Part shown: positions 6,696-63,700 of the stretch, piece by piece
How the letters are laid out: every line of letters begins with the position of its first letter
How positions within the stretch are numbered: the stretch's first letter is position 1
Assembly (NCBI RefSeq): GCF_013004105.1
Contig: NZ_CP053085.1
Location: 2,480,001-2,544,000, forward strand
Length of the DNA: 64,000 nucleotides
DNA from: Gemmatimonas groenlandica
GTDB lineage: Bacteria > Gemmatimonadota > Gemmatimonadetes > Gemmatimonadales > Gemmatimonadaceae
Direction: 5' to 3'
Position numbers and translations under genes: made by a program
The notes under the pieces: model-generated
Databases searched by the model: none
What the model was told of the DNA's origin: nothing
The model's input: the letters and a program-made list of their open reading frames with translations, nothing else

Positions 6696-7559
6696 TCAGC
6701 TCTTCCGGCGACGGCGGGCCGCGAAGGCCAGTCCGGCGAGGCCGGTTGCCATGAGTGCCCAGGTGCTGGGCTCGGGCACGGTCGACGTCTGAATGTTGAT
6801 GTTGTCGATCCAGAAGGTGCGGTAGGGATCGGGATTCATTCGCTTGTCGCCGTAGCCACGGAGTTCGTCCACGGAGCCATATGGGTCGTACGTGCCGAGT
6901 GCAGTCGAGTACGTCGCGTTGAAACGGACCTCGTTGATGAGGCCAAGTTTCGCCATCATCGACGAGAAGCCGCCGCCGATTCCGAGAAAATTGAAATCCT
7001 GCGACCAGACTTCGTTTCCGTTGTTCAGGCCCGTCACGCGAAGATTCGCGACGTTGCCCCAACCGCCACCGAGCTGCATCGACTTGAGCTCGAACAGCGA
7101 CGAGCTCGAGAAACTGGCACCGTTCGGCCCCTGTGCACCGGAGACCGCGACGACCTGCGTCGCGTTGGGGTTATAGCCTGAGTATTTCTGCTGGTAGCCC
7201 GTCAGGATCTGATTGTTCTGAATGGCATAGAGCGAACCCTGACGTCCGTTGACAAAGCACCGGCCATAGGCTTGCTGACCGTCCGAATACAGATAGTCCT
7301 GAAGGTCGAGAGCCCCGAAGCCACTCCAATTGAAACCGGAGAAGCCATTCTGAACCGTCTGGCCGTTCCAGTTGCAGTTGTAATTATTGCTGTTCGTCTG
7401 GCTGCCAGCCAGGTAATTGGAATTGACCTGGCTGTTGTAGCCAAGCTCTTCAAACGTGACCGGCGTGATCGGCTGCGCCGACAGCGGCGCGCTCACGAGC
7501 AGCGTTCCCACGGCGAGCGTAGGGAGCAGGGAGCGGCGGATAGTCTCAAGAACGCGCAT
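6696..7559 (-). CDS. PEP-CTERM sorting-domain surface protein
   Basis: This is a 287-residue secreted protein. A signal peptide (about residues 1-28, ending LSAQ) precedes an Asn/Gln/Tyr/Gly-rich body. The C-terminus is a textbook PEP-CTERM signal: VPEPSTW at about 261-267, a hydrophobic helix (ALMATGLAGLAFAA), then RRRRKS. By family knowledge such proteins are processed by an exosortase (EpsH/XrtA) and usually accompany exopolysaccharide loci. No exosortase is in this window. The body resembles the Ala/Gly-rich beta-sandwich PEP-CTERM proteins, but I cannot assign a specific function. It lies downstream of nfrA-nfrB-wecB behind its own sigma-54-type promoter, suggesting a separately switched surface component of the same system. 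Confidence 0.9.
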   Translation of the reverse strand: MRVLETIRRSLLPTLAVGTLLVSAPLSAQPITPVTFEELGYNSQVNSNYLAGSQTNSNNYNCNWNGQTVQNGFSGFNWSGFGALDLQDYLYSDGQQAYGRCFVNGRQGSLYAIQNNQILTGYQQKYSGYNPNATQVVAVSGAQGPNGASFSSSSLFELKSMQLGGGWGNVANLRVTGLNNGNEVWSQDFNFLGIGGGFSSMMAKLGLINEVRFNATYSTALGTYDPYGSVDELRGYGDKRMNPDPYRTFWIDNINIQTSTVPEPSTWALMATGLAGLAFAARRRRKS

Positions 7560-7802: not shown

Positions 7803-9005
7803 CTAGATCACCATCTCCACCGGCGAGCTGTCGTGCTCTTCGATCAGCGCTGACTCGAGGATCTCCGAGATGTGCTGGCCGGCCCGCCCGTCGCCGAACG
7901 GGTTCGGCCCCGACACCATTCGCTGATAGACCACCGGGTCGCAGAGGATGCTCAGCGCCTCCTTCACGATCAGATCCGGGTCCGTGCCCACGAGAATCCC
8001 CGCCCCCACCTGCACCACCTCCGGGCGTTCCGTCCGCTCGCGCAGAATCAGGATCGGGCGCCCCATCGACGGCGCTTCTTCCTGCAAGCCACCGGAGTCG
8101 GACAGGATCAGCGTACTGCGGTGCATCAATTTGAGCAGATCGCGATAGGCCAGCGGCTCCGTGAGCAGCACGCGCGGCGTCGTACCGAGTGTCTCGATGA
8201 ACATGCCACGCACGTTCGGATTCGGGTGCAGCGGAAACACCACCTGTAAGTCAGGCACCGCATCGATCAGCCGACGCACCGCCCGGGCCACGTCGCGCAT
8301 CGCCGCCCCGTGATTCTCGCGACGGTGCGCCGTGACCAGCGCCACACGCCCTTCACCCAGCGCGGCCAATGCCGGATTTTCGTACGGATGCGACAGATCC
8401 ATCTGTCGCACGGCATCGACGATGGTGTTGCCCGTGACGAAGATGCGATGCATCGGCACGCCTTCGCGGAGCAGATTGTCGCGGCTTTCCGGCGTCGGGG
8501 TGAAATGCCACTGGGAGGCGACCCCCACCACGCGACGATGGAATTCCTCGGGGAACGGCTCCTGGAAGTTGAAGGAGCGCAGCCCCGCTTCGACATGCCC
8601 CACCGGAATCGACCGCCACGTCGCCGCCATCGCGCCGGCAATCGCGCTGCTGGTGTCACCCTGCACCAGCACCACACTCGCCTTCGCCTGCACCATTACC
8701 TCGTCCAGTGCCGTGATACACCGCGATACGAACTCGCTCGGCGTCTGATTCGTCGTCATCAGCGTCAAGGCGATATCGGGCTGAATACCGACATCGTCGA
8801 AGGCGCGCGTGAGCAGTTCGCGATGCTGACCCGTGGACACCAGCGTGACGCGCATGCGCCCGCGTTCGCGGATCGCCCGTACCACCGGCGCCATCTTGAT
8901 CACCTCGGGGCGCGTGCCCACGACCGCCAGCACGTGAGGCGGTTCGTTGGGTTCGATCGCGCGCATCCCGCCACGCATCGGAGTCAGCCAGCGCGATGTA
9001 TTCAT
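7803..9005 (-). CDS. wecB: UDP-N-acetylglucosamine 2-epimerase (non-hydrolysing)
   Basis: This enzyme interconverts UDP-GlcNAc and UDP-ManNAc in the cytoplasm, supplying ManNAc for surface polysaccharides. The 400-residue protein has the GT-B fold signatures: GTRPEVIKMAPV near the N-terminus, QGDTSS, HVEAGLRS, TAHRRENHG (about residues 223-231), HPNPNVR and SDSGGLQEEAPSMG. Length is typical apart from an extra ~25 N-terminal residues. Its ATG overlaps the nfrB stop by 4 nt, so the two are translationally coupled. The E. coli Nfr glycan also depends on WecB, which supports a shared pathway here. Confidence 0.93.
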   Translation of the reverse strand: MNTSRWLTPMRGGMRAIEPNEPPHVLAVVGTRPEVIKMAPVVRAIRERGRMRVTLVSTGQHRELLTRAFDDVGIQPDIALTLMTTNQTPSEFVSRCITALDEVMVQAKASVVLVQGDTSSAIAGAMAATWRSIPVGHVEAGLRSFNFQEPFPEEFHRRVVGVASQWHFTPTPESRDNLLREGVPMHRIFVTGNTIVDAVRQMDLSHPYENPALAALGEGRVALVTAHRRENHGAAMRDVARAVRRLIDAVPDLQVVFPLHPNPNVRGMFIETLGTTPRVLLTEPLAYRDLLKLMHRSTLILSDSGGLQEEAPSMGRPILILRERTERPEVVQVGAGILVGTDPDLIVKEALSILCDPVVYQRMVSGPNPFGDGRAGQHISEILESALIEEHDSSPVEMVI

Positions 9006-10546
9006 GATTTCGTGGTCTTGACGATGATCTCGATGTCGTCACGCGAGACGACACCTTGATTCACCAGAATGGCGCCCAGCTGACCGCCGTGCTCGCGCTG
9101 CTGCTTGAGCGCCAGCACCAGCTGCTGCGTGGTGAGCTTGCGCTCCTCGATCAGACGCTCGCCCAGTCGCATCTGCGCACCGACCTGCGGCGGCAGTGAG
9201 TGCTCGGTCTTGTCCCAGCTCATCGGAATACCGGTGCGCCGCGAACGCGTGTACTGCAATGCGGCGCGCATCGTCGCCACCAGGTTCACGATGTTGCTGA
9301 ACGGTGTCCGGAAAATCGCCAACATCGCCTGCCAGAAACCGTACAGTCGTCCGGTCGCGAGCGCACGCTGCAGCAACCGATTCAGCATGAACAGGAAGCC
9401 GATCCAGAAGAGCCACTGGAACCACGGGCTCTGCACGAGATCGGGCAGCTCCGGCCGACTGAAGGTCTTGATCCACTGATACCCGGCGTAGTACACGACC
9501 AGGATGTAGCCCGCGAGCACCACGAGATATCCCAGCGGACCGCGGCGATCGTGCGCCAGGATCCAGTTCAATCCCGTGGGCCAGCCCCAGTGCTCCCACC
9601 CCTGAAACACGATACCGGCCATCCAGCGCGTGCGCTGACGCACAGCCGTCTTGAACGTCTGCGGGAACGGTGCCCACGTGGCCACCAGCTCCTCAGGCGC
9701 ACTCGGCTCTTCGCTCGACTTCACGTATTGGTGCAGATAGCGCGTCGGGCGCCCCTGCACCGTCAGACCGAGTCCGAGGTCGTAGTCTTCGGTGAGCGAG
9801 TTGGTGGCGAAGGGCACGCCGTTTCGCTCTTCCATCAGCTGATCGATCACGCTGCGGCGCACACACGTTGCCACACCCGCCGACGGCACGAAGCCCCACA
9901 CCTTCTCGCGCACGAACATGTTCTTCGTGTACTGCTCGGCGAATTCATCGATGTACGTGCCGGCCACGAAGTCGTACCAGTACGGCGGCGTGGAGAGCAC
10001 CGGCAGCTGCACGAAATCCGCACCTTCACCACGGAAATACCAGTTGAGCAGCCGCAGCTCCTGCGGATGGATCAGGTCTTCGACATCGTGGAAGATGATG
10101 AGGTCGTAGCGGAGTCCCGCCCGCTCTTCGTGCTCGGCGATCGCCGCGAGCACCGCGTTCACGCAATCGGCTTTCGACGTCGGCCCATCGTTGTCGGTGA
10201 CGACCTTGCGCACGTTCGGATAGACCGAGCGTACCTTGTCGACTTCGCGACGCGTATCAGGGTCGTTCTTGTATGTGCCGATCCAGTAGTCGTATCGCTG
10301 GTAGTCGATGCGCGGCAGGTTGTACATCAGCATGCGCGCGATGACGTCCTGTTCCTTCCATGCCGGCGTCACGATCGCGATACGCCACTCGCTGACGTCC
10401 TTCAGCTCCTTGGTCGTGACGACGGGCCGCTCCCACCAATTGAACATGCGGCCAAGCCAATACACGCAGTCGAAGAACAAGTCATCGAGTGCGAAGATCA
10501 GATAGAACACGGCGATGATAGCGATCGCCATTTCATAATTCGTCAC
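9002..10546 (-). CDS. nfrB: NfrB-like processive glycosyltransferase with C-terminal MshEN c-di-GMP domain
   Basis: This 514-residue inner-membrane protein starts at a GTG that overlaps the nfrA stop. A TM helix (~5-25) leads into a GT2 domain. The DxD-type HDVED is at 153-157, the catalytic TED at 252-254 and the processive-synthase motif QRTRW at 304-308. Further TM segments lie at about 338-358 and 376-396. The C-terminal ~55 residues form an MshEN domain: RLGERLIEERKL starts at 460, the Gln pair is at 482-483, and the second half is LGAILVNQG at 490-498. MshEN (GSPII_E_N) domains are established c-di-GMP binders. In E. coli NfrB, the phage N4 adsorption protein B, the same GT2-MshEN layout makes a c-di-GMP-dependent surface glycan. 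I infer that this enzyme polymerises a ManNAc-containing polysaccharide when c-di-GMP is high. Confidence 0.9.
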   Translation of the reverse strand: MTNYEMAIAIIAVFYLIFALDDLFFDCVYWLGRMFNWWERPVVTTKELKDVSEWRIAIVTPAWKEQDVIARMLMYNLPRIDYQRYDYWIGTYKNDPDTRREVDKVRSVYPNVRKVVTDNDGPTSKADCVNAVLAAIAEHEERAGLRYDLIIFHDVEDLIHPQELRLLNWYFRGEGADFVQLPVLSTPPYWYDFVAGTYIDEFAEQYTKNMFVREKVWGFVPSAGVATCVRRSVIDQLMEERNGVPFATNSLTEDYDLGLGLTVQGRPTRYLHQYVKSSEEPSAPEELVATWAPFPQTFKTAVRQRTRWMAGIVFQGWEHWGWPTGLNWILAHDRRGPLGYLVVLAGYILVVYYAGYQWIKTFSRPELPDLVQSPWFQWLFWIGFLFMLNRLLQRALATGRLYGFWQAMLAIFRTPFSNIVNLVATMRAALQYTRSRRTGIPMSWDKTEHSLPPQVGAQMRLGERLIEERKLTTQQLVLALKQQREHGGQLGAILVNQGVVSRDDIEIIVKTTKS

Positions 10547-11880
10547 TTGCGGTCTCCCATCGTCGGGTCATGCAGCGGCTTGAGCTTGCGCCAACCATAG
10601 ACCGCCGTGAATCGCCAGTCCTGATACCGCCGGTTCGTGGCGGCAGGGGGCTCCATGATGTAGCGACCGGCGATGCCTTCGGCGAGGAAGACGAATCCGT
10701 GACCCGGCCGCAGCGCGACGCCACCACCGATTTCAGCCGCGCGATTGAAAAAATCCGCCCGACTGTCGTACCCCACCCAACCGCGGGCGAAGAAATCGAC
10801 GGCCTTGGTGGCGAGCGATCCTACGCGGAATCCTTCTCGCAGCTGCATGTACCCGATCACGTTCTTGTCGAAACGCTCGTACCAGCTCACGTCGCCCGAA
10901 AGATCGGTGAGCAGACGCACGTTGGCGCCGTCACCAAGCTGCAGTTCGTGCGCGAGGATCACGTACGCGCCCGCACGGATGTCGCGCGTCCACGAATTCT
11001 CGGCGCCGGAGAGCAGCGATCGCGCGCCGCCCGCTTCGGCGTAGAACCAGATCGGACCGCGCGCCGGTCGCACGCGCACGCCGCCGGCGAGGATCGCGGC
11101 ATTGTCGCTGAGTACCCGCGACTGAAGGCCGCCCGACGATTTCGAATCACGTGTCACGCGGAGCGACGTATACAGCGCTTGGCCCCAGGAACTGCCGCTC
11201 TCGATCCCGAGCCGCGTGAACCCGGTGGCAATCGTGTTCTTGAATCGCGTCTGATAGAACGGCGCGATGTAGCCTTCGGAAAAATACGACGTGCCGGGGC
11301 CCTGCTTGACGCGCAACGCGCGCTGCGCCGGCATCGAGACGACGGTGTCTTCGGCCAGCGACGCCGCCTTGAACGCGGCGAGCGCACTCTTTTCGCGACC
11401 GACGTCGTCGTACAGATAGCCGAGCGCCAGATGGTCGACCGGCGTGAGTCCGCTGGTCGTCTTCGCGATGCCCTCGAACGCCGTGATGGCTTCGCGCGTG
11501 CGCTTGAGACTGATCAGCACGTAGCCAAGCTGTCGATGGACTTCGGGGCGCGACGCGTCGCGATCGACGCCTTGACGCAGATAGTCGGCCGCGCGCGGTC
11601 GATCACCACCGGCGAGCGCGAGATAGCCGAGTTCGATTCGCGGCAGCGCCTGACTCGTGTCGGCGGCAATCGCCTGCTCGAAACTCAGTCGGGCGGCGGC
11701 CGTGTCGCCGCGCGCTTTGGCGGCGTAGCCCACATTCAGGGCAGCAGTGTAGCGCTCAGCAGGAGTGCCCTGAGCACGAGCCGGTGCCGCAGCCAGACAG
11801 ACGAGTGCGACCGCAAGGGTCACTCTCGATGCCCGAACGCGACGGCGCGACGGCTCCGGAGAGTCGGAGAGGAGCGGCAA
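10543..11880 (-). CDS. nfrA: NfrA-like TPR/outer-membrane beta-barrel protein
   Basis: This 445-residue exported protein has an Arg-rich n-region, a hydrophobic segment and an ALA-type signal-peptidase site (APARA/QG, ~36-37). TPR-like helical repeats cover about 40-190 (for example GYAAKARGDTAAARLSFEQA). The rest, with alternating aromatic/polar strands and a terminal aromatic-basic stretch, fits an outer-membrane barrel, as in the NfrA C-terminal domain. E. coli NfrA is about twice as long because it has more TPRs. By analogy it would export the NfrB-made glycan through the outer membrane. The start is uncertain: the first codon is TTG at 11880 and a GTG alternative lies about 20 codons in. 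It overlaps nfrB by 4 nt. Confidence 0.78.
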   Translation of the reverse strand: MPLLSDSPEPSRRRVRASRVTLAVALVCLAAAPARAQGTPAERYTAALNVGYAAKARGDTAAARLSFEQAIAADTSQALPRIELGYLALAGGDRPRAADYLRQGVDRDASRPEVHRQLGYVLISLKRTREAITAFEGIAKTTSGLTPVDHLALGYLYDDVGREKSALAAFKAASLAEDTVVSMPAQRALRVKQGPGTSYFSEGYIAPFYQTRFKNTIATGFTRLGIESGSSWGQALYTSLRVTRDSKSSGGLQSRVLSDNAAILAGGVRVRPARGPIWFYAEAGGARSLLSGAENSWTRDIRAGAYVILAHELQLGDGANVRLLTDLSGDVSWYERFDKNVIGYMQLREGFRVGSLATKAVDFFARGWVGYDSRADFFNRAAEIGGGVALRPGHGFVFLAEGIAGRYIMEPPAATNRRYQDWRFTAVYGWRKLKPLHDPTMGDRK

Positions 11881-11991
11881 TGGAACAGGGGACAGGGACT
11901 ACCCGCGAACCGAATCCTACTGGTCGGATTGAGCGGTCCCTGGCTGGGCCCGCCGATTCTCGGGATGTTGACTGGATGACAATACCAGCAG

Positions 11992-12017
11992 TGTGACGTT
12001 CTGCGATAGACGTCACA
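11992..12017. promoter_or_regulatory. Perfect 8-bp inverted repeat upstream of nfrA
   Basis: TGTGACGT (11992-11999) and ACGTCACA (12010-12017) form a perfect inverted repeat with a 10-bp spacer, about 110 bp upstream of the nfrA start. The symmetry and spacing suggest an operator for a dimeric regulator. The spacing between the TGTGA and TCACA cores is 16 bp, not the 6 bp of a CRP/FNR site, so I do not name the regulator. Confidence 0.45.
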
Positions 12018-12100
12018 ACGTCAGGCAAGGTCACCGTCAGCAGATTTCCTGTCCCAGCACACATGCGGGCTAGCCCACACCTACCGCGCAGTGTGATAGC

Positions 12101-12116
12101 GCCATCATGTGATGGC
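12101..12116. other. Short palindrome after the lipoprotein gene
   Basis: GCCATCATGTGATGGC forms a 6-bp stem with loop ATGT, starting 20 nt after the lipoprotein stop. No T tract follows on the minus strand, so it is a weak terminator at best. Read-through from the riboswitch-led transcript into nfrA therefore remains possible. Confidence 0.35.
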
Positions 12117-12135
12117 CCTCACCAGCGGTTTCGCG

Positions 12136-12936
12136 CTAGAGCGCCCGCACGGAATGCACCTTCACCGTCGCATCCTCGGCATAGATGCCGATGCGCCCCT
12201 GCCGATACGGGCTCTCCTGATCACGGAGCCGTATGATCTCATGGCCATCGACGAACACCGCGATCGCTTCATCGACCTGAACGATCGTGACATCATAGGT
12301 TCGGCCGATCGGGAAGGTCTGCTCCGAGCCCGAGCCCAGGAACCGCTGGCCACCCGGGTAGGCCGGATCGCGCTTGCCGAGTTCCCACCCGTTGGGCTTC
12401 GGGATGAAGTAGTAGAACCGCTGATCGTCGGTATACTGCCAGATGACCCACCCGACTTCCCAGGGGTTCGGGGTGCCGTTTCGCAACTGTGCCGTCGTCT
12501 CGAGGCGGGTATGCATCACCAGGCGACTGCCGTACTGCGGACCGAGCACCATCGGCGCGTGGGTCATATAGTCCTTCTGCGCCGCCTTTGGGCCCATCGC
12601 GAGCGACGCCTGCCGTCCTTCGCCGTCTACGGCCACACAACCGTATCCATCGAAGCGCACGGTCCACGACCCGAAGTCTTCGCCTTGCGTCAGGCACTCC
12701 GGGCGGACGGTCGGGAAGTCGATGCGGGGGAGGCGATTGGCGTAGCGGAGCACGGCCAGCTGCGACGCCGCGTCGTTACGCATCGATGGTCCGGAGACCA
12801 TCGCATCCAGGGACACCTGACTGCCACCGCTGGGGTCCAGCGCCGTCGTCGGGTTGGCCGACCGGCAGGATGCCAGCAACAGCATCGCCCCAGCGAGCGC
12901 GATGAGTCGGGTGTGCGACATCGCACGATTGAGCAC
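12136..12936 (-). CDS. Riboswitch-controlled lipoprotein with jelly-roll/LamG-like domain
   Basis: I prefer the GTG at 12936 (266 residues) because GGAG at 12942-12945 sits 5 nt before it; the ATG at 12921 has no good Shine-Dalgarno. Either start gives a lipoprotein signal, RLIALAGAMLLLASC, with the lipobox Cys at about residue 25. The mature part (~100-266) resembles a concanavalin/laminin-G-type beta-sandwich of the 3-keto-disaccharide-hydrolase (DUF1080) style: FGSWTVRFDGYGC, EVGWVIWQYTDDQRFYYFIP, TYDVTIVQVDEAIAVFVDG and GRIGIYAEDA. Such folds bind or cleave glycans. I see no catalytic signature and call it a probable glycan-binding partner of the NfrAB system. A c-di-GMP-I aptamer lies in its 5' leader. 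Confidence 0.8.
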   Translation of the reverse strand: MLNRAMSHTRLIALAGAMLLLASCRSANPTTALDPSGGSQVSLDAMVSGPSMRNDAASQLAVLRYANRLPRIDFPTVRPECLTQGEDFGSWTVRFDGYGCVAVDGEGRQASLAMGPKAAQKDYMTHAPMVLGPQYGSRLVMHTRLETTAQLRNGTPNPWEVGWVIWQYTDDQRFYYFIPKPNGWELGKRDPAYPGGQRFLGSGSEQTFPIGRTYDVTIVQVDEAIAVFVDGHEIIRLRDQESPYRQGRIGIYAEDATVKVHSVRAL

Positions 12937-12945: not shown

Positions 12946-12958
12946 GCGAGCGGGTTCG

Positions 12959-13044
12959 TTCGGTAACTCGGCCGGCTGACGTGGCGGACCACGTGTAAGC
13001 CCCGGAGCTTTGCGTCCCCGACTTCCGTCGGGTTTGCCGTTTCG
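12959..13044 (-). promoter_or_regulatory. Cyclic di-GMP-I (GEMM) riboswitch aptamer
   Basis: Read on the minus strand, this has every conserved block of the GEMM-I aptamer. ACGGCAAACC is followed by a 6-bp stem CCCGAC/GTCGGG capped by a GNRA loop (GGAA). Then comes GGGGACGCAAAGC, then a second stem (CCGGGGC... ACGTGG-TCCG-CCACGT ...GCCGG), and finally GAGTTACCGAAC. The ligand-contacting bases map as G20 at 13037, A47 at 13010 and C92 at 12963. G at position 20 favours c-di-GMP; the cGAMP-preferring GEMM-Ib class usually has A. The aptamer ends about 22 nt before the lipoprotein GTG start, and no T-tract terminator intervenes, so control of translation initiation is likely. It begins downstream of the rpsLG terminator. 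Confidence 0.9.
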
Positions 13045-13166
13045 CGACCTCGGTAGTGAGGCAGCGCACCACATCAAGTTGACGCGGCCATTTCAGGCGG
13101 GCAACGCTTCATGCCGTGCGTAAAACAACGCGGCCGAACCTGTGACGATGCCCACCCTGAAACGAC

Positions 13167-13194
13167 AACTGCCTCGGGATATCCCGAGGCAGTT
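13167..13194 (-). terminator. Terminator of the rpsL-rpsG operon
   Basis: A perfect 12-bp stem (AACTGCCTCGGG/CCCGAGGCAGTT) with loop ATAT starts 25 nt after the rpsG stop. On the minus strand it is followed by GTCGTTT, a weak U-rich tail. It separates ribosomal transcription from the riboswitch-led glycan cassette. Confidence 0.8.
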
Positions 13195-13218
13195 GAAATA
13201 ATCGTGCCGGCTGTGTGA

Positions 13219-14277: not shown

Positions 14278-14898
14278 CTACTTGGCGGCGACTTTGGCCT
14301 TGACCAGGTCGGCGATCTTCTTTTCCAAGGCGCCCATCGACGAGCAGCGCACGTCGCTGCTGGCGGCCGTGGTGGCGTTCTTCCCTGTTCCCTCGAGCGT
14401 GGTTTGGACGACACTCCCGCCGGCGTCGTTCGGGATGATGCGCGACTTCACCGTCAGCAGGAGCTGGTAGGTTTCCGCGTTCGGCATGCCCGAGTCCCCG
14501 CCGCAGTCCAGCGCCCGCATCGTCGGCACATCGCCGATCCGGCGGCGCACCCGGTACGCGTTGTTTCCGATCGTCCGCGTCTGCTGGTTCAACTCGGTGA
14601 CCGGAATCGTGAGCGAGGCATAGGCTTCCTGCAGCGCCGCCCAGGCTTTCTCGACGGGCGCGTTGATCAGGACGCTATTGACCTCCGTGGTCGAGACCAT
14701 GTTGATCCCGGTGGCGGAGCCTTGCGCGTTCTGAATGACCGCCGTCTGCACGCTACTGGTTCCGAAGTCCCCGCTCTTGCTGGCGGACTTGCTTGCGCAG
14801 CCCGTCATCGCGGCGAGCAACACAGCCGCGGAAAGCACCACCGAGACACGACGCCCGGCATCGCGGTGAATCGCCAGCAGACGTTTCGACGTAATCAT
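14278..14898 (-). CDS. Lipoprotein of unknown function
   Basis: This is a 206-residue protein starting at ATG 14898, with GGAG about 8 nt upstream; an in-frame extension to 15051 lacks homology-like features. The N-terminus is a lipoprotein signal with lipobox LAAMTGC (Cys at about residue 33). The mature part includes a START/Bet v1-like stretch (INAPVEKAWAALQEAYASL) that often marks ligand-binding or membrane-stress proteins, but I cannot assign a function. It is divergent from the Ser/Thr kinase at 15072, with a 173-nt shared upstream region, and lies between rpoC and rpsL. Confidence 0.75.
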   Translation of the reverse strand: MITSKRLLAIHRDAGRRVSVVLSAAVLLAAMTGCASKSASKSGDFGTSSVQTAVIQNAQGSATGINMVSTTEVNSVLINAPVEKAWAALQEAYASLTIPVTELNQQTRTIGNNAYRVRRRIGDVPTMRALDCGGDSGMPNAETYQLLLTVKSRIIPNDAGGSVVQTTLEGTGKNATTAASSDVRCSSMGALEKKIADLVKAKVAAK

Positions 14899-15071
14899 TG
14901 GGGACTCCGCGGCATCGCTGCCGGCTCCTTCGGGTGTCTTAACAGCGGGACTGGGGTAACGTACCTGAGGGTAGGAAGGTGCGCTAATCAGGTCCCGAGT
15001 CACCTCCGGTGGTAGACTGGAGGGTGACGCGCAGTGACCACACCGGACCATTGGTTTTCCGTGAGAATGCC

Positions 15072-61060: not shown

Positions 61061-61739
61061 AGCCGAGCCGAGCTTTCGCGGCAGCGCCGAGCAAATCGAC
61101 CACGGAGCGCGGCGACCTGTTCGCACAATGCGGCGTGAACTACGGCCCATACTCCAGTGCACGCACGGATTCATCCGGCGACACCTCACGATACCGGTCG
61201 CGGCCCTTCTCCCTGGCCTCATACAAGCCTCGATCGGCCTGATCGATCATCCTTTCCAGATTGACACGTCCGAAGTCAGCGCTGTGCGCAAGACCCGCGC
61301 TCTCGGTCACGCGAATGGGCTGATTGGCGATGATGATCGGGTGCTCGCGGATCGACTGAAGAATGCGGGTAGCAGTGATCTGAAGACCCTCGTGCGAGAC
61401 CTCGTCCAGACACACCAGAAATTCTTCACCACCGTAGCGACCGACTTCGTCACCTGCGCGCAGTACGGCTGCGATTCGTCGGGCCACCTCGCGAAGCACT
61501 TCGTCTCCAGCGGAATGACCAAGCGTGTCGTTGACGGCCTTGAAATGATCGATGTCGATGAGGATGAGGGCAGCCTCGCGAACGTGGCGCCGTCAGGGTT
61601 GTTGCATCTCGCCCGCTCTGCGCATGATGGCACGGCGATTCTTGATCCCGGTCAGGGCGTCGTTCGTGGCTTCGATGGCGAGTGCATCGCGCGCTGCTCG
61701 CAGCGCTTCGTTGGCTGACGAAAGCCGCTCATAGAGCAC

Positions 61740-62722: not shown

Positions 62723-63700
62723 CTAGGCGGCGCTTTCACTCGGCTGCGGGACCGGCGCTCGCGCGACCTCTCGCTGCCGACGCCGTGCCGACTTCTCTTC
62801 ATACATTCGCGCGTCGGCCTCGGCGACCAGCTCCGTCAGTGAAAGAGTCGACGACAAGACGTGCCGCACAAAGCCAAAACTGATCGACAGTTCAAACGCT
62901 GGCGTCCAAGCGAGATTTTGCGCAGCTAGATGATGCCGGATACGCCAGGCGATATCCCGTTCGGCGTGCAACGGCACGTCGACTGCCAGAACGACAAACT
63001 CGTCGCCGCCCAGACGCGCGATCACGTCCGACGCACGAAACGCGCGGCTGAGTACGCTGCCGACTGCCTGGATCGCGCGATCCCCTGCCTCGTGACCGAA
63101 TTGGTCATTGATCGACTTGAGCCCGTCAAGATCCGCATACATCAACAGCACCTGGGTGTCGGCCGGGTACTCGCGAATTCGCTGCGAGCCGAGGAGGTGA
63201 AACCCCCGTCGGTTCTTGAGGCCGGTGAGTTCGTCCGTCACCGAGAGGCGCCGAATTTCCTCGAGCAGTGCGGCCCGCTGCCGTGCGTAGCGCAGCGCCC
63301 GCTCCAGTACAGGACCCGTGATCTCCTGCTTCACGAGGTACTCGGCTGCGCCCGCCCGCAGGGCCGCGAGATCGGTGTCCCGGTCTTCGACACCGGTGAG
63401 GAGCAGGATGGGAGTGCGACATCCAAACTCGGCGGCGGCGGTGAGAAGCTCGAGGCCGGTGCGGGCGCCAAGCTGGCAATCGAGCAGGCAGACGTCATGT
63501 GCCTCACGACGGAGCGCCGCTAATCCAGTTTCGTAGCTATCGGTCCACTCGAGCGAGAACAAGGCGCCCGGCACACGGTCGAGCAGCGTCCACGTGAGCA
63601 AAAAGTCGTCGATATCATCTTCAATGAGGAGAACCCGAATGGGCCGATGGACGTCCTCACCGTCGTTCGAGACGACCTCCGGAGCCTCAGTAACCAGCAC
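62723..63700 (-). CDS. Receiver-GGDEF response regulator (diguanylate cyclase)
   Basis: The 325-residue protein has an N-terminal receiver (VLLIEDDIDDF, phospho-acceptor Asp in VCLLDCQLGARTG, YLVKQEI) and a GGDEF domain (about 150-310) with the active-site GGDEF in ARLGGDEFVVL. Five residues before it lies RASD, an intact RxxD inhibitory site. It should make c-di-GMP when phosphorylated and be product-inhibited. It overlaps the preceding Rcp1-like receiver gene by 14 nt. It is the only intact c-di-GMP synthase in the window and could feed the riboswitch/NfrB system, though the distance makes this only a possibility. Confidence 0.94.
   Translation of the reverse strand: MLVTEAPEVVSNDGEDVHRPIRVLLIEDDIDDFLLTWTLLDRVPGALFSLEWTDSYETGLAALRREAHDVCLLDCQLGARTGLELLTAAAEFGCRTPILLLTGVEDRDTDLAALRAGAAEYLVKQEITGPVLERALRYARQRAALLEEIRRLSVTDELTGLKNRRGFHLLGSQRIREYPADTQVLLMYADLDGLKSINDQFGHEAGDRAIQAVGSVLSRAFRASDVIARLGGDEFVVLAVDVPLHAERDIAWRIRHHLAAQNLAWTPAFELSISFGFVRHVLSSTLSLTELVAEADARMYEEKSARRRQREVARAPVPQPSESAA

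Follow-up and report, generated by a model that had tools for sequence, protein, structure and literature searches.

A c-di-GMP-I riboswitch heading an Nfr-type exopolysaccharide cassette suggests two-level control of one locus in Gemmatimonas groenlandica

What is a riboswitch for the biofilm messenger c-di-GMP doing between rpsG and fusA, inside the str cluster of Gemmatimonas groenlandica, and which genes does it serve? The genome is a single contig of 5.18 Mb, and the window analysed here is a 64,000-nucleotide stretch of it in which rpoB, rpoC, rpsL and rpsG are followed by the aptamer, by five genes on the same strand and then by fusA, tuf and rplC. The reading we favour, and consider likely, is that a c-di-GMP class I riboswitch heads an Nfr-type exopolysaccharide cassette and alters translation initiation of its first gene, lipoA, and that the same messenger also switches the NfrB-type synthase encoded farther down the cassette.

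A cmscan search of the whole window places a match to the Rfam c-di-GMP-I family (RF01051) at 13048-12959 on the minus strand, with 66.9 bits (E 6.3e-11) against a gathering score of 35 and an untruncated alignment to model positions 1-87 of 87; the only other Rfam match in the window is a tRNA. The preliminary description had proposed a c-di-GMP-I riboswitch on this strand and had suggested a comparison with this covariance model, and the significant full-length match bears the proposal out. Together with the 3' strand of P1, which ends at 12954, the aptamer (GEMM-I) occupies 12954-13049 (-). The blocks named earlier, a GGAA-capped stem, GGGGACGCAAAGC and GAGTTACCGAAC, are present. As for the three ligand-contacting positions given there, C 12963 is right and G 13037 and A 13010 are each one base off: the equivalent of Vc2 G20 is 13038, the first G of GGC (in the Rfam alignment G11 is unpaired and G12-C13 paired), that of A47 is 13011, the first A of CAAAG, and that of C92 is 12963. 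The first two assignments follow from the Rfam structure and from the contacts of the cGAMP riboswitch, in which A14 comes before and A41 after the first P2 pair, C15-G40 (PMC6274999). Since the letters G, A and C are unchanged by this shift, the c-di-GMP-type core stands, and all three nucleotides are invariant across nine aligned orthologous aptamers.

In the same nine orthologues the RNA structure pairs 96% of cells, compared with 18-39% in slid controls. P2 and P3 contain six pairs altered on both sides, and P1 has 87% of its cells paired and no double change. The aptamer is nearly unchanged in four close relatives while the sequence upstream of it diverges, and matches to RF01051 or RF03167 lie at the same place in relatives. 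The folding energy is not below that of shuffles (z -0.54). The covariance-model match, the core nucleotides and the covariation together mark the aptamer as a genuine member of the c-di-GMP-I family, and on this sequence evidence it is predicted to bind the ligand.

The first gene of the cassette, lipoA (12136-12936, -), encodes a lipoprotein with the lipobox LLLASC and a lectin-like jelly-roll domain. Its AF2 model (pLDDT 80) finds the CBM66 structure 4b1m in Foldseek searches with an E value of about 1e-8 and a TM-target of 0.73-0.78, and the protein matches Pfam PF06439 weakly. Because the predicted fold is closest to CBM66, a glycan-binding role is likely. A relationship to YbcH was considered and rejected (hhalign probability 0.3%). 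Between lipoA and the next gene lies a gap of about 255 nt (71-310 nt in orthologues) that holds a block, CGTCTATCGC..GTCAC..GGTA, conserved in same-genus loci. Within this gap (11881-12135) the block forms a TGTGACGT-N10-ACGTCACA inverted repeat, a possible promoter or operator.

The three genes that follow the gap overlap by 4 nt each and correspond in kind to the components of the Nfr/NGR system. TPR matches and an AF2 model (pLDDT 83) indicate that the NfrA-like protein (10543-11880, -) is an outer-membrane exporter, with a TPR superhelix (helices 40-192) followed by a beta-barrel of about 12 strands (strands 198-435), which is the combination characteristic of NfrA. Its best Foldseek match is E. 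coli BcsC, a likeness of architecture only, since the TM-score is low, and its sequence does not resemble that of E. coli NfrA. The next product (9002-10546, -) is an NfrB-type family 2 glycosyltransferase that matches the NCBIfam profiles PRK15489 (441 bits) and NfrB (422 bits) and shares 37% identity with E. coli NfrB across aa 8-505. It keeps the catalytic TED and QxxRW motifs, and its C-terminal MshE-type c-di-GMP motif (aa 460-506; NF053729, 47.6 with a cut-off of 38) also matches the N-domains of MshE, PilB and PilF in the PDB and carries a Leu and a Gly equal to E. coli L490 and G491. We regard it as a homologue rather than the same equivalog, because its 422 bits compare with an NfrB equivalog cut-off of 1170; the last 200 or so residues of E. 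coli NfrB are absent. WecB (7803-9005, -), the UDP-GlcNAc 2-epimerase that would supply UDP-ManNAc, is the third component and is recognized by the equivalog TIGR00236 (415.6, cut-off 210). By analogy with E. coli, the polymer would be ManNAc-based. A PEP-CTERM surface protein (6696-7559, -; PF07589, TIGR02595) is the last gene before fusA. Taken together, the NfrB-like glycosyltransferase, the WecB equivalog, the TPR-barrel exporter and the PEP-CTERM protein agree with the earlier claim that the aptamer heads a surface-glycan cassette. Elsewhere in the cluster, a lipoprotein gene at 14278-15051 (-), between rpoC and rpsL, is conserved in relatives and has no Pfam match.

The association of aptamer and cassette is fixed wherever it could be followed. 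Full-length NfrB orthologues occur in 7 of 298 sampled Gemmatimonadota genomes, in two genera, and in all seven the aptamer lies 2.3-2.6 kb upstream on the same strand; when further loci are added, it is kept at 12 of 12 cassettes, three of which are incomplete. The position is always between rpsG and fusA wherever the contig allows a view, and the rpsG-to-fusA synteny is identical in the window's genus and a sister genus. Three Gemmatimonas loci that carry a different WecB cassette between these genes have no Rfam c-di-GMP-I match, which indicates that the riboswitch tracks the Nfr cassette and not the site. The nfrB regions of E. coli K-12 and of five proteobacterial plasmids likewise gave no c-di-GMP-I match in an Rfam search.

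Surface-glycan genes fill the rpsG-fusA interval also in Gemmatimonas genomes that lack the Nfr cassette. There they lie on the opposite strand and encode a GT2, a different WecB (about 46% identical) and, in the loci where it could be seen, a PEP-CTERM protein. The interval looks like a place within the str cluster where WecB-based cassettes are exchanged: it carries either the Nfr type or, in opposite orientation, one of GT2/bactofilin-like/PEP-CTERM type (loci L096 5014-16283, L097 4301-13960, L099 4696-10039 and L106 663-11875, to be compared with 13219-6122 of the window).

The leader of lipoA is short and simply built. The Shine-Dalgarno GGAG lies at 12945-12942 (-), 8 nt past the 3' strand of P1 and 5 nt before the GTG start at 12936; measured from 12959 it is 14 nt past the aptamer, as the preliminary description had it, and directly before the lipoprotein gene. 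Three close relatives conserve GCGGAG here, and relatives have ATG or GTG at the place of the start codon, which falls 17-23 nt past the Rfam match in nine of nine leaders. Upstream of the aptamer, a strong hairpin after rpsG (13160-13200, -), CTGCCTCGGGATATCCCGAGGCAG followed by TTGTCGTTT, is conserved in close relatives, and a 65-nt stretch around it folds at -30.1 kcal/mol. A simple terminator scan did not pick it up; from its sequence it is the probable rpsG terminator, parting the cassette from the upstream str genes. Between this hairpin and the aptamer, a block near-ungapped in nine same-genus leaders (GTTTT-N-GGC-N-GTTGC ... GCGTC, 13057-13125, -) is a candidate cassette promoter, and no sigma-70 consensus was found in this region. 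The block resembles a sigma-54 site with the spacing one base off.

These distances bear on the mode of control. A terminator scan and inspection of the leader found no intrinsic terminator between the aptamer and the start codon. Because the aptamer ends so close to the start, and because no terminator fits, translational control of lipoA is the best reading and the most likely mode on sequence grounds. The c-di-GMP-I switches of Vibrio cholerae likewise work without termination (PMC6366702). In the proposed mechanism, c-di-GMP binding would close the three-way junction and P1, and closure would change translation initiation of lipoA through the proximity of the P1 3' strand to the Shine-Dalgarno. 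The direction of the change is nearly balanced: we lean slightly to ON rather than OFF, because E. coli NfrB binds and requires c-di-GMP (PMC8669469, PMC8669472). ViennaRNA comparisons of the free and bound folds gave no consistent change in Shine-Dalgarno accessibility across 39 leaders of the phylum (p = 0.93) and no consistent direction in the nine orthologous leaders, and with P1 forced the mean change in the 39 was -0.06 (p = 0.016). Two specific switching elements were rejected, namely a pairing of P3 CUCCG with the Shine-Dalgarno CGGAG, which is present in the window and missing from more distant orthologues, and a P0 hairpin upstream of P1 with an anti-Shine-Dalgarno 5' arm, whose hairpin and duplex energies are like those of shuffles in most leaders.

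Farther down the cassette, c-di-GMP is also predicted to activate the NfrB-type synthase by way of the MshE-type motif, a gating that we infer for this species. With a riboswitch at the head of the cassette and this motif in the synthase, the system is probably controlled twice by one signal, at the level of the RNA and at that of the enzyme. A further step, which we put forward with considerable doubt, is a coherent feed-forward arrangement in which c-di-GMP would turn on both cassette translation and the finished synthase, so that glycan would be made only under sustained high c-di-GMP. The 17 GGDEF domains in the genome are a possible source of ligand. Within the window, the GGDEF domain at 61194-61667 (-) has an in-frame TGA inside the match and adjoins an intact one at 62777-63241 (-); it possibly belongs to a decaying diguanylate cyclase gene.

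How far down the cassette the riboswitch reaches is the point on which a rival reading has most to offer. The riboswitch might regulate lipoA only, with nfrA-nfrB-wecB transcribed from a separate promoter within the 255-nt gap, so that NfrB would be their only tie to c-di-GMP; the conserved block in the gap makes such a promoter conceivable. It would also fit the phylum, where the genes behind c-di-GMP-I are typically those of lipoproteins or secreted proteins, and one MAG that keeps the aptamer and lipoA although the nfrA-to-wecB piece is deleted, if that deletion is not an assembly fault. On the other hand, lipoA and nfrA lie on the same strand, the gap contains no terminator-like site and the gene order is fixed in two genera, and on balance we think this rival a serious one that is somewhat less probable than even. 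Control of transcription, by Rho or by an attenuator overlapping the aptamer, is unlikely: the 17-23 nt between aptamer and start are all that is available, and they hold no intrinsic terminator. Rho-dependent termination, however, would leave no sign in the sequence, and an untranslated lipoA could leave both the message and the 255-nt gap open to Rho.

That the RNA reads another ligand, either 3',3'-cGAMP (GEMM-Ib) or that of a c-di-GMP-I-GGC variant, is very improbable. When related families compete, RF03167 (c-di-GMP-I-GGC) takes three of the orthologues, but position 47 is A in all loci (GACGCAAAGC) and the G belongs to the RF03167 model consensus (GACGCGAAGC), from which it had been read, and the variant ligand was therefore rejected. 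Position 20 is G in all loci, where the cGAMP switch has A (for the role of this position see PMC6274999), and no locus carries that A. It is likewise very improbable that the aptamer is decayed and functionless. That no clear expression platform is visible would suit decay, but the aptamer is near-perfectly conserved in close relatives while its flanks diverge, it contains compensatory pairs and it is retained at every cassette. We return to a probable translational c-di-GMP-I switch on lipoA at the head of the cassette, with a synthase behind it that is predicted to respond to c-di-GMP.

The genome has a second c-di-GMP-I aptamer, at contig position 2898637-2898732 (8637-8732 of locus L073), which leads a Big_2 lipoprotein gene. 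The genome's single exosortase gene is 6.6 kb away, and the locus contains genes named by eye from their translations as glycosyltransferase-like and epimerase-like; with these neighbours, both riboswitches of the genome fall in surface-polysaccharide or PEP-CTERM loci. Across the phylum, c-di-GMP-I occurs in 150 of the 298 sampled genomes. In the 39 leaders the aptamers regularly abut the start codons of lipoproteins or secreted proteins, with the start 4-39 nt past P1 (median 17), and some are in tandem (L014, L024, L028). Such phylum-wide translational use seems not to have been described, and the present analysis offers a first reading of c-di-GMP-I leader roles in Gemmatimonadota, a phylum in which the aptamer is present in half of the genomes sampled.

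The aptamer family, the ligand type, the translational placement and the Nfr-type synthase are each of a known kind; what is new is the fixed link of a c-di-GMP-I riboswitch to an Nfr-type synthase that is predicted to be gated by c-di-GMP. The word riboswitch is absent from both E. coli Nfr papers (PMC8669469, PMC8669472), and no title or abstract joining a riboswitch and an Nfr-type synthase turned up when it was searched together with Gemmatimonas, MshEN or exopolysaccharide. The earlier statement that riboswitch control of an Nfr-linked lipoprotein is not known to be described thus holds for the open literature that was searched. In E. coli, c-di-GMP is known to control Nfr-type surface glycans by acting on the enzyme, and the glycan there is a phage receptor. 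If the two-level reading is true, a distant phylum would show that a messenger can act on a single output through an RNA receptor and a protein receptor at once, and the cassette is a compact system for testing why it does.

Among known systems, two place a c-di-GMP riboswitch, as here, on a surface adhesion structure: the class I Bc2 before cap in Bacillus thuringiensis and the class II Cdi-2-4 before pilA1 in C. difficile (PMC6366702). Unlike the arrangement in the window, these act through transcription termination or read-through. In neither case do we know of an operon that also encodes another c-di-GMP receptor. The 3',3'-cGAMP riboswitch of Geobacter (GEMM-Ib) shares the fold and the Rfam clan of the window's aptamer and differs by A in place of G at position 20. 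The protein side is closest to nfrB-nfrA-ybcH and wecB of E. coli (the N4 glycan receptor, NGR), which also combine an NfrB-type GT2 bearing an MshE-type motif, a TPR-barrel exporter and WecB; wecB adjoins nfrB-nfrA on Pseudomonas, Thalassospira and Nitratireductor plasmids. The E. coli system, however, has no riboswitch and an NfrB longer by 231 aa, whereas in the window the first gene encodes a lectin-like lipoprotein unrelated to YbcH and NfrA is dissimilar in sequence. On the RNA side the nearest relative is Vibrio cholerae Vc2 (RF01051), described as translational (PMC9262584, PMC6366702), with the same three-stem aptamer, tetraloop and G20/A47/C92 core. In contrast to Vc2, the aptamer of the window is followed by a ribosome binding site just 8 nt beyond P1, shows no distinct expression platform and stands at the head of an Nfr-type cassette.
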